A model generated the notes under the pieces. It worked only from the letters and a program-made list of their open reading frames with translations, was not told the origin of the DNA and did not search any database. A stretch of 64,000 bases of DNA from Candidatus Iainarchaeum sp. (lineage in GTDB: Archaea > B1Sed10-29 > WALL01 > JAGHAM01), in contig JAGHAM010000023.1 of the NCBI GenBank assembly GCA_021161465.1, forward strand, positions 12,471-76,470, written 5' to 3'. The translations under genes and the position numbers were made by a program. This document shows, in pieces, positions 45,339-63,673 of this stretch (position 1 is the first letter of the stretch; each line of letters starts with the position of its first letter).

Positions 45339-45663
45339 CGGACCCGGAGGGAATTCCACTCGCAAAGGAGAAGGGCTTATAAGGAACACATAACGCCCTT
45401 ACTGCTTTCCATCCCATTAAGGGAAGGGGCTGATAAGGGGGAACCGTAGGTGCCCCTTATTTTGAACCCCCGATCTTCTGGTTTCTCCCCCTCTCATTAA
45501 GAGAGGTACTAGAACCATAAGTTCTGATACCATCACCCAAAGGACGCGCTAAGGGAGGACTGGAACACAAATTCCAATCCTACCTTAAATCCAAGGGATG
45601 TATCGGAACCGTAGGTTCTGATGTCCGAAGCCAGATGCCTTATCCTAGCTAGGCTACGGGCCC
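45339..45663 (-). tRNA. tRNA-Arg(TCG) with two introns
   Basis: Exons on the minus strand: 45663-45625, 45482-45461 and 45352-45339. The acceptor GGGCCCG pairs with CGGGTCC, discriminator G. Anticodon stem TCTGG/CCAGA with loop CTTCGG-A gives anticodon TCG. T stem GGGGG/CCCTC. Intron 1 (about 45624-45483, 142 nt) is at the usual 37/38 site. Intron 2 (about 45460-45353, 108 nt) splits the T loop after TTCAAA, before T60. TTCA can pair with TGGA in the intron, leaving the three-base bulges AAA and ATT: a bulge-helix-bulge. A TTAAATA box lies at 45690-45696. CCA is not encoded. Confidence 0.88.
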
Positions 45664-50847: not shown

Positions 50848-51114
50848 AGCCCCGTAGTGTAGTGGACAATCATATCGGACTCTGGACATCAGAACCTACG
50901 GTTCCGATACCTCCCTTAAGGTTTTAAGGTAGGGTTGGTTCCGATACCTCCCTTGACGGTAGATAAAGTATATCTCCTGTGATGGGGGTGTAGAAGCAGT
51001 TGTTCTGGAGTAACTCTGGAACTCTTGATGCCTCTCTCAATTGATGAGAGAAATCCGATGACAGCGGTTCGAAAGAAGGGTTTTACCCCATCAACGAAAT
51101 TCCGCTCGGGGCTA
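50848..51114 (+). tRNA. tRNA-Gln(CTG) with two introns
   Basis: Exons 50848-50885, 51053-51073 and 51101-51114. Acceptor AGCCCCG/CGGGGCT with A73, anticodon stem TCGGA/TCCGA, loop CTCTGG-A giving CTG, T stem AGCGG/CCGCT. Intron 1 (50886-51052, 167 nt) is at 37/38 and contains repeated CCGATACCTCCCTT units. Intron 2 (51074-51100, 27 nt) splits the T loop after TTCGAA. Here TTCG pairs with CGAA in the intron, covarying with TTCA/TGAA in other tRNAs, with bulges AAA and ATT. A TATA box ATATAAATA lies at 50818-50826. Confidence 0.9.
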
Positions 51115-51119
51115 TTAGT

Positions 51120-51303
51120 GGACCCGTGGTCTAGTCTGGTTTAGGACATCAGCTTCACAGATTCCGTCGGCGCGCAGGGCAAAGCACGAGAACGATGGAA
51201 TTGAGAGCGCTGGGGATCCCCGGTTCAAAAAAAGGAAGGGAGACACATTCCCCCTCCCCTTATAAGCCCTCCTCCTTTGGAGGTGAACATCCGGGCGGGT
51301 CCA
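51120..51303 (+). tRNA. tRNA-Val(CAC) with two introns
   Basis: Exons 51120-51159, 51208-51229 and 51290-51303. Acceptor GGACCCG/CGGGTCC with A73, anticodon stem TCAGC/GCTGG, loop TTCACA-C giving CAC, T stem CCCGG/CCGGG. Intron 1 (51160-51207, 48 nt) is in the anticodon loop. Intron 2 (51230-51289, 60 nt) splits the T loop after TTCAAA; TTCA pairs with TGAA at 51284-51287, leaving bulges AAA and CAT. It begins five bases after tRNA-Gln, so both are probably made from one transcript. Confidence 0.9.
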
Positions 51304-57089: not shown

Positions 57090-57380
57090 GCTCCCGTAGT
57101 CTAGTCCGGTTAACCACGAACCGCAAAATCCGTTCATGCTTTGTGTGATTGCTACGCAATCACACTGTTGGCAGGACGTAGCTGCTCTCTGGGAACAATC
57201 CCTTGCAGTAGCAATTTGTGGTACGGAAAAGGATAAGGGCCTCTCGAGGCTTTCCTTGATATCTAAGGAAAGCCAAGGAAAGCCCTAGACCCGGGTTCAA
57301 AATAAGGGAGGGGGACACATTCCCCCTCCCCTTATAAGCCCTTCCCCTTTGGAAGAGCATGAACAGTCCCGGCGGGAGCA
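57090..57380 (+). tRNA. tRNA-Glu(CTC) with three introns
   Basis: Exons approximately 57090-57112, 57231-57246, 57281-57301 and 57367-57380. Acceptor GCTCCCG/CGGGAGC with A73, anticodon stem AGGGC/GCCCT, loop CTCTCG-A giving CTC, T stem CCGGG/CCCGG. D-loop intron about 118 nt: TCCG (57105-57108) pairs with CGGA (57224-57227), and ACCAC with GTGGT forms the inner helix; exact ends are uncertain by two bases. Anticodon intron 57247-57280 (34 nt). T-loop intron 57302-57366 (65 nt) after TTCAAA. A TTTTTAAAC box lies near 57057-57065. Confidence 0.85.
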
Positions 57381-59509: not shown

Positions 59510-59959
59510 ATGACAGACCAGATAGAATTCTTCGCGCAGTATGGCAAATGGGTTGCAGTGAAAAAGCTGAAAATTGAAAACCAATCAAAGGCAGAAGTAG
59601 CGCGCTTCCTAGCAAGCGTGCACGAGAGCATAGATAGGAAAATGTGGGAGTTCCTTGATGAGGATATCCCATTAGGGGCTTTGGACGAGATAGCTGTTGA
59701 GATAACCGGGGCAACTAGAAAAGGCAAGAAATGGGTAACGCCGCGATTGAATGAGGAAAGGACTATCGAAATCATGGCAAGGCTAAGGAGCACGGGAACC
59801 ACGAGAAAAATAAAACAACACGTTAAAAGCAAAGAACTGGTTGAGCTCGCGAAAATTTACCTAACCAGGCGCGCGCTTGAGATGATTGGGGTCAACCTGG
59901 AGCCAGACCCAAAGGTTATTGAGAAGTATACAACCAAAAAAGAACTTGGTGAAGTTTAG
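59510..59959 (+). CDS. DUF2666-like protein (149 aa)
   Basis: A soluble, basic archaeal protein beginning MTDQIEFFAQYGKWVAVKKL. The FFAxYGKWVAVKKLxI opening is one I associate with DUF2666, whose role is unknown. The middle segment is rich in aromatic and charged residues (RKMWEFLDEDIPLG), and the C-terminus is lysine-rich. GGTGTT precedes the ATG; the gene follows the prenyltransferase by 31 bases and may share its message. Family placement is from pattern memory. Confidence 0.65.
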   Translation: MTDQIEFFAQYGKWVAVKKLKIENQSKAEVARFLASVHESIDRKMWEFLDEDIPLGALDEIAVEITGATRKGKKWVTPRLNEERTIEIMARLRSTGTTRKIKQHVKSKELVELAKIYLTRRALEMIGVNLEPDPKVIEKYTTKKELGEV

Positions 59960-60099
59960 CCCCCTAACTCTGACAACCACAACTCCCTAAGTTCCTTCGT
60001 TTGCACAAAACCGTCTAGGACCTTACCAACTATTGCTCGAGTGGCATTTATAAATCTTAGAAAGCAATTTAAAAGTTAAATGTAAAAGTATAGACGCAC

Positions 60100-60225
60100 G
60101 GGGTCGTAGGGTAGCCTGGACCATCCTACGGGCTTTGGGAGTCTTTTCTGGACGCGCGGGTCAAGCCTGAGCAATGGAAAAGGCAAAAACAGCCTGTGAC
60201 CGGAGTTCAAATCTCCGCGACCCCA
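60100..60225 (+). tRNA. tRNA-Pro(TGG) with one intron
   Basis: Exons 60100-60139 and 60191-60225. Acceptor GGGGTCG/CGACCCC with A73. Anticodon stem CGGGC/GCCTG, loop TTTGGG-A giving TGG. The D arm GGGTAGCCTGGACCATCC is typical of archaeal tRNA-Pro. T stem CGGAG/CTCCG with an intact loop TTCAAAT. The intron (60140-60190, 51 nt) is at 37/38. There is no T-loop intron, unlike most tRNAs here. A TTTAAAAG box lies near 60068-60075. Confidence 0.9.
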
Positions 60226-60228
60226 CCT

Positions 60229-60384: not shown

Positions 60385-60508
60385 GCAGGGGTTCCGGAGC
60401 GGTCAAACGGGCAGGACTTAAGTAACCCTTCTGTCGGCGCGATGTGCCGGCTGATTTGAGAAATCCTGTGGCTTAGTGCCTTCGAGGGTTCGATTCCCTC
60501 CCCCTGCA
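60385..60508 (+). tRNA. tRNA-Leu(TAA) with one intron
   Basis: Exons 60385-60422 and 60463-60508. Class II tRNA: acceptor GCAGGGG/CCCCTGC with A73, anticodon stem CAGGA/TCCTG, loop CTTAAG-A giving TAA, a long variable arm (about TGGCTTAGTGCCTTC) and T stem GAGGG/CCCTC with an intact T loop. The intron (60423-60462, 40 nt) is at 37/38 and contains the inner hairpin CGGCGCGATGTGCCG. No clear TATA box of its own; it may be read together with tRNA-Pro. Confidence 0.88.
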
Positions 60509-63480: not shown

Positions 63481-63673
63481 GCCTCGGTGGCTCAGGTTGG
63501 TAGAGCACTTCCTTGGTAACAACCCTTTTTTGTCAGCGCTGTCAAAAAAGCGTTGACGGAAAAGGCCAAACAGGAAGGGGTCGTGGGTTCAAAATGGGGG
63601 TTTAACACCCCCTATAACCCCCGTAGAGGATTGCTATGCAATCCGTTTGGGTTTGGGACTCCCACCCGAGGCT
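63481..63673 (+). tRNA. tRNA-Thr(GGT) with two introns
   Basis: Exons 63481-63518, 63572-63593 and 63660-63673. Acceptor GCCTCGG/CCGAGGC with T73, anticodon stem CTTCC/GGAAG, loop TTGGTA-A giving GGT, T stem GTGGG/CCCAC. Intron 1 (63519-63571, 53 nt) contains the hairpin TTTTTTGTCAGCGC/GCGTTGACGGAAAA-like. Intron 2 (63594-63659, 66 nt) splits the T loop after TTCAAA; TTCA can pair with TGGG, leaving the bulges AAA and ACT. A CATAAATTA box lies at 63447-63455. Confidence 0.9.

Follow-up and report, generated by a model that had tools for sequence, protein, structure and literature searches.

A tRNA-Glu(CTC) gene with three putative introns from families shared among the tRNA genes of a small archaeal genome

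A tRNA gene broken at three places raises two questions: whether it can still give rise to a tRNA, and how the interruptions arrived. Such a gene lies in the genome of a Candidatus Iainarchaeum species, at positions 57090-57380 of the window analysed here, a stretch of 64,000 nucleotides from contig JAGHAM010000023.1. A first-pass annotation had proposed that inserts of about 118, 34 and 65 bases in the D, anticodon and T loops conceal a complete tRNA-Glu(CTC) with all stems paired, and its coordinates, anticodon and lengths all proved exact. The four exons, all on the plus strand, are exon 1 (57090-57111), which runs from the acceptor 5' strand to the D loop and ends in TCCGGTT; exon 2 (57230-57246), from the D-stem 3' strand to the anticodon CTC and G37; exon 3 (57281-57301), from A38 to the T loop, ending in GGGTTCAAA; and exon 4 (57367-57380), which carries T60, the 3' strands of the T and acceptor stems and the discriminator A. 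Between them lie intron 1 (118 nt, 57112-57229) at position 20a/21 of the D loop, intron 2 (34 nt, 57247-57280) at the canonical position 37/38 of the anticodon loop and intron 3 (65 nt, 57302-57366) at position 59/60 of the T loop, which together account for most of the gene, as had been claimed (217 of 291 nt). When the exons are joined, a perfect 74-nt tRNA is obtained with every stem paired (GCTCCCGTAGTCTAGTCCGGTTAGGATAAGGGCCTCTCGAGCCCTAGACCCGGGTTCAAATCCCGGCGGGAGCA). Judging from the sequence, the locus is very probably a working tRNA-Glu(CTC) gene with three protein-spliced introns of the archaeal kind, which appear to be copies from shared families; ARAGORN detects no tRNA anywhere in the window and Rfam gives no match there at its gathering thresholds, a miss that we attribute to the inserts.

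The exon-intron junctions carry a bulge-helix-bulge (BHB) motif or a relaxed form of it, the D- and T-loop sites being relaxed. At the D-loop site, exon TCCG (57105-57108, +) forms the central helix with intron CGGA (57224-57227, +), and ACCAC (57113-57117) forms the inner helix with GTGGT (57218-57222); both helices, proposed in the first-pass annotation, are present in the unconstrained minimum free energy (MFE) fold of the whole precursor. The anticodon-loop site is near-canonical, with a single C-A mismatch in its central helix and an inner helix formed by GGCTTTCC (57248-57255, +) and GGAAAGCC (57267-57274, +). In intron 3, TGAA (57360-57363, +) pairs with exon TTCA (57296-57299, +) and encloses two hairpins (57302-57335 and 57338-57358); the 3' bulge is of 4 nt and the 5' site adjoins a hairpin. 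The unconstrained fold of the 291-nt precursor contains the acceptor, D, anticodon and T stems together with the three closing helices, and its energy (z = -8.45 against dinucleotide shuffles) was equalled by none of 200 shuffles.

The first-pass annotation had missed that this gene is typical of its own genome. In a genome-wide census, for which T-loop-like places were collected, the stretches fetched and the cloverleaves parsed, with contigs 31-40 covered in part, 30 tRNAs could be parsed; the T loop measured 34-328 nt in 25 of them, 20 and 23 nt in two and was normal in three. Four more were read by eye, tRNA-Asn and tRNA-Tyr being normal and tRNA-Leu-GAG and a tRNA-Ser carrying inserts, so that about 27 of the 34 tRNA genes examined have a T-loop insert at the same site. 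At least four, those for Glu(CTC), Glu(TTC), Ala(GGC) and Gly(GCC), contain three inserts. Within the window, tRNA-Arg(TCG) (45339-45663, -) has an anticodon-loop insert and a 115-nt T-loop region of stacked family B units (see below), tRNA-Gln(CTG) (50848-51114, +) a long anticodon-loop insert and a 34-nt T loop with TTCG/CGAA pairing, tRNA-Val(CAC) (51120-51303, +) an anticodon-loop insert and a family B insert in the T loop, and tRNA-Thr(GGT) (63481-63673, +) an anticodon-loop insert and a T-loop insert with the hairpin GGATTGCTATGCAATCC; in tRNA-Pro(TGG) (60100-60225, +) and tRNA-Leu(TAA) (60385-60508, +) only the anticodon loop is interrupted and the T loop is intact. A tmRNA called by ARAGORN at 59888-60227 overlaps an ORF and tRNA-Pro and was rejected as spurious. 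Elsewhere, tRNA-Thr(TGT) and tRNA-Thr(CGT) carry near-identical, long, hairpin-rich anticodon-loop inserts within the first ~230 bases of contigs C5 and C2 (loci L043 and L045 of this genome, G000), and repeats of this kind at contig ends probably break the assembly.

The inserts fall into recurrent sequence families. Two dominate the T loops: family A, (A)AGAAGGGTTGCACCCTTTCTAAACCTGCA...GGATTGCTACGCAATCC, and family B, AATAAGG...CCTTATAAGCCC..., to which intron 3 belongs. The long T-loop inserts are stacks, as in tRNA-Leu(CAG) (L099), where a family B unit ending in GGGATGGAAAGC is repeated in tandem. Intron 1 contains a hairpin, GTGTGATTGCTACGCAATCACAC, and a module, CCGCAAAATCCG...GCTTTG, that recurs in several further tRNAs, within inserts of the D or anticodon loop; searched for as module C (CCGCAAAATCGG-N-CGCTTTG), it gave one hit in a reversed-sequence control. 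An anticodon-loop module, CCCTTTT...AAAAGCGTTGACGGA, is present at locus L119 and in the tRNA-Thr(GGT) gene of the window and, by eye, also in an element downstream of tRNA-Glu in genome G010 (L016). Similar intron sequences in different tRNAs, by which transposed tRNA introns of the Thermoproteales type are recognised, are thus found in this genome, and the occurrence of family B and module C in its other tRNAs suggests that the introns spread by copying.

Nearly all the T-loop introns also share a geometry, in which the intron ends with bases complementary to exon T54-T55-C56-R57, followed by a 3- or 4-nt bulge. The partner of A57 is T in 24 of 25 T-loop introns and that of G57 is C in four of six, counts that come from related rather than independent copies and from a choice of register that slightly favours complementarity. 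The TTCR closing helix appears in the MFE folds of 15 of 25 T-loop inserts and of 105 of 1000 shuffled inserts. Two hairpins lie between its strands, the first of which covaries among eight tRNAs, with two-sided compensatory changes in three pairs that do not involve the exon. Because the 5' site adjoins a three-way junction and not a simple bulge, we class the motif as a relaxed BHB; by the usual BHB rule, cuts at AA|A and NN|T would restore a normal 7-nt T loop.

Related sequences occur in other genomes. The class to which the organism belongs was represented by 19 genomes, of about 0.3-1.3 Mb, unlike those of Thermoproteales. Three tRNAs of G012, a genome from another order of the class, carry near-identical family A copies in the T loop, and family A also occurs in the T loop of a tRNA-Leu of the same-family genome G001, whose downstream gene resembles, by eye, that of tRNA-Leu(GAG) here; the same hairpin module recurs in the anticodon loop of tRNA-Asp in G001 and G002, and G354, which lies outside the class, has a related T-loop intron. 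Of 394 genomes searched, 12 gave matches, several of which lay outside tRNAs on inspection and look like chance. A different arrangement was observed in G005, G007, G009 and G010 (L011 1124-1275, L012 2350-2529 on the minus strand, L016, L049, L070 and L074), where 60-160 nt of hairpin-rich DNA separate several different intact tRNAs from a second copy of their 3' end, which starts at the T loop; the arrangement resembles small integrated elements or some stage connected with the gain of T-loop introns. The duplications in relatives of family f2 might be these introns with their first 3' end still in place, although their ends, on inspection, lack the TTCR-pairing geometry. In G008 (L192, contig C17, about position 200), an intact tRNA-Leu and a duplicated stretch of its 3' end have a family A hairpin downstream of them, an arrangement that connects the 3'-end duplications with the T-loop intron family. 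In G204, which is not of the class, the element that follows a tRNA-Gly(GCC) (L229, contig C107) contains the family A hairpin as its reverse complement, along with a second T-arm and 3' end.

These arrangements bear on the strongest alternative, namely that DNA mobile elements, either of the integrase type or hairpin elements resembling single-strand transposons, entered the tRNA genes and that the introns are their spliceable by-products. The use of one insertion site in many tRNAs, the tandem stacking in tRNA-Leu(CAG) and the intact tRNAs of the f2 relatives, followed by short elements and a second 3' end, would all suit such an origin; the splice helices of the inserts, each fitted to the exon that it pairs with and showing the A57/G57 covariation, speak against it. 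We regard it as rather unlikely, while noting that it concerns the arrival of the inserts and is compatible with their present splicing.

A second alternative is that the locus is a decayed pseudogene struck by DNA repeats and that a separate, intact tRNA-Glu does the work, and here the copy number is informative. The genome is a draft of 976 kb in 40 contigs, estimated at 93% complete with 0.17% contamination. A conventional tRNA-Glu(CTC) elsewhere had been named in the first-pass annotation as one of two findings that together would speak against three introns; no intact tRNA-Glu was present among the 8 strong or 15 lenient Rfam tRNA hits of this 93%-complete genome, although an intact copy, or a second EndA subunit, could lie in the ~7% missing from the draft. 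For comparison, G001 has 30 Rfam tRNA hits and the remaining 17 genomes of the class have 13-44, against only 8 here. The isoacceptor tRNA-Glu(TTC), on contig C13 (L121, from position 818), is interrupted at the same three places by inserts of 167, 34 and 65 nt and gives a perfect tRNA when spliced in silico. Its T and anticodon introns are 95% and 85% identical to those of tRNA-Glu(CTC), and the inner helix of the anticodon intron is kept through G-U replacements (GGCTTTCC/GGGAGGCC). Its D intron, the paralogue of intron 1, has diverged and keeps the geometry, with exon TCCGG facing intron CCGGA, a bulge of CCA where the CTC gene has TTA, and a different inner helix. In the nearest relative, G001, the syntenic tRNA-Glu(CTC) is intron-free (L010 1335-1410) and lies beside the same UbiA-like gene. 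The pseudogene has in its favour that the inserts belong to repeated families, as DNA elements would, and that the genome is incomplete. It is nevertheless very improbable, since all tRNA stems are intact, no intact tRNA-Glu was found, and interruptions of the same kind affect most other tRNAs, the TTC isoacceptor among them, which would be lethal without splicing.

An artefact of assembly or binning has even less to recommend it: the assembly is a draft and several of its contigs end within insert repeats, yet a different contig, C13, shows the same architecture, as do many tRNAs whose flanks are unique, estimated contamination is minimal, and related T-loop introns occur in G001, G012 and G354. 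Self-splicing group I introns can be dismissed almost entirely, because inserts of 34-118 nt are too short for the core, no Rfam family reaches threshold in the window, so that no catalytic core was recognised, and the BHB geometry fits. Group I introns have been described in archaea (PMC6125680).

The reading of the locus as a spliced, three-intron tRNA-Glu, which the analysis supports, draws together the intact tRNA, the isoacceptor with the same introns, the lack of any intact tRNA-Glu among the hits and the presence of genes for EndA and RtcB. We infer the splicing, its order and the mechanism of copying from sequence, as follows. In the precursor cloverleaf, every intron would have a closing helix of the BHB or relaxed BHB kind, and the single alpha-type EndA would cleave at all three positions (20a/21, 37/38 and 59/60); ligation of the exons, and probably the formation of intron circles, would fall to RtcB. 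The family B intron and the module C intron probably spread by copying into the conserved T loop, at GTTCRA, and into other loops, through either reverse splicing with conversion or insertion at the DNA level. The C-A mismatch at the anticodon-loop site counts against this reading, and so does the enzyme. The one EndA gene found encodes a protein of ~170 amino acids with the N-terminal and C-terminal domains, whose entire length can be aligned with the M. jannaschii alpha4 enzyme (1a79), the spacing of the catalytic Tyr and His being the same in both; in that alignment no ASL-like insertion is present, and neither a second subunit nor a three-unit fusion was found in this genome, which is 93% complete. 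According to a review, only the (alpha-beta)2 and epsilon2 forms of EndA remove relaxed-BHB introns efficiently, and the alpha type is confined to the strict BHB (PMC6379350). The draft may lack a partner subunit, the alpha enzyme may be unusually tolerant, or the sites may be acceptable to it. Beyond the locus, we put forward tentatively, as a proposal that may well fail, that the T-loop introns constitute a distinct mobile type, characterised by TTCR pairing, two hairpins at a three-way junction, tandem stacking through repeated insertion at 59/60 and sequential removal by an alpha4-type EndA. If true, this would contradict the view that the alpha4 type limits archaea to strict BHB introns, and some tRNAs would exceed the known maximum of three introns.

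In kind, the phenomenon is already known, because multi-intron tRNAs and intron transposition occur in Thermoproteales, where three introns per tRNA, the reported maximum, are exemplified by Pyrobaculum islandicum tRNA-Pro(UGG), and where the resemblance between introns of different tRNAs points to transposition on a large scale (PMC4033280, PMC4090602). The present case differs in its apparently distinct, small-genome lineage, in the dominance of T-loop introns at 59/60 that affect most tRNAs, in the two-hairpin introns and their tandem stacks, and in that only an alpha-type EndA gene was found, in contrast to the (alpha-beta)2 enzyme of Thermoproteales. Similarly, ARMAN (Micrarchaeum) combines a small genome with non-canonical tRNA introns (PMC4033280, PMC6379350), but its EndA is of the epsilon2 form. 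The tRNA-Thr of Caldiarchaeum also ties intron gain to mobile elements at tRNA genes (PMC3293823); there, however, the insertion is of 1.8 kb and carries a recombinase gene, whereas the elements described here, of 34-328 nt, are too short to encode one. Searches of open-licence papers for tRNA introns in Micrarchaeota, DPANN and Diapherotrites brought up no description of such a pattern; as far as those papers show, what is new is the lineage, the predominance of a single T-loop site, the stackable two-hairpin intron and its pairing with an alpha-type EndA.

This tRNA-Glu(CTC) and its genome bear on the spread of tRNA introns in archaea and illustrate how introns can overrun tRNA genes. The lineage includes a nearest relative whose tRNA-Glu is intron-free and whose tRNAs are mostly intact, as well as a genome in which most tRNAs have been invaded at a single site; with introns common to distant genomes, it offers a datable gain and a testable mechanism. 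In addition, the lineage challenges the proposed link between the type of EndA and the introns that are tolerated. Because most of their tRNAs escape standard tRNA finders, such genomes may be wrongly called tRNA-poor.
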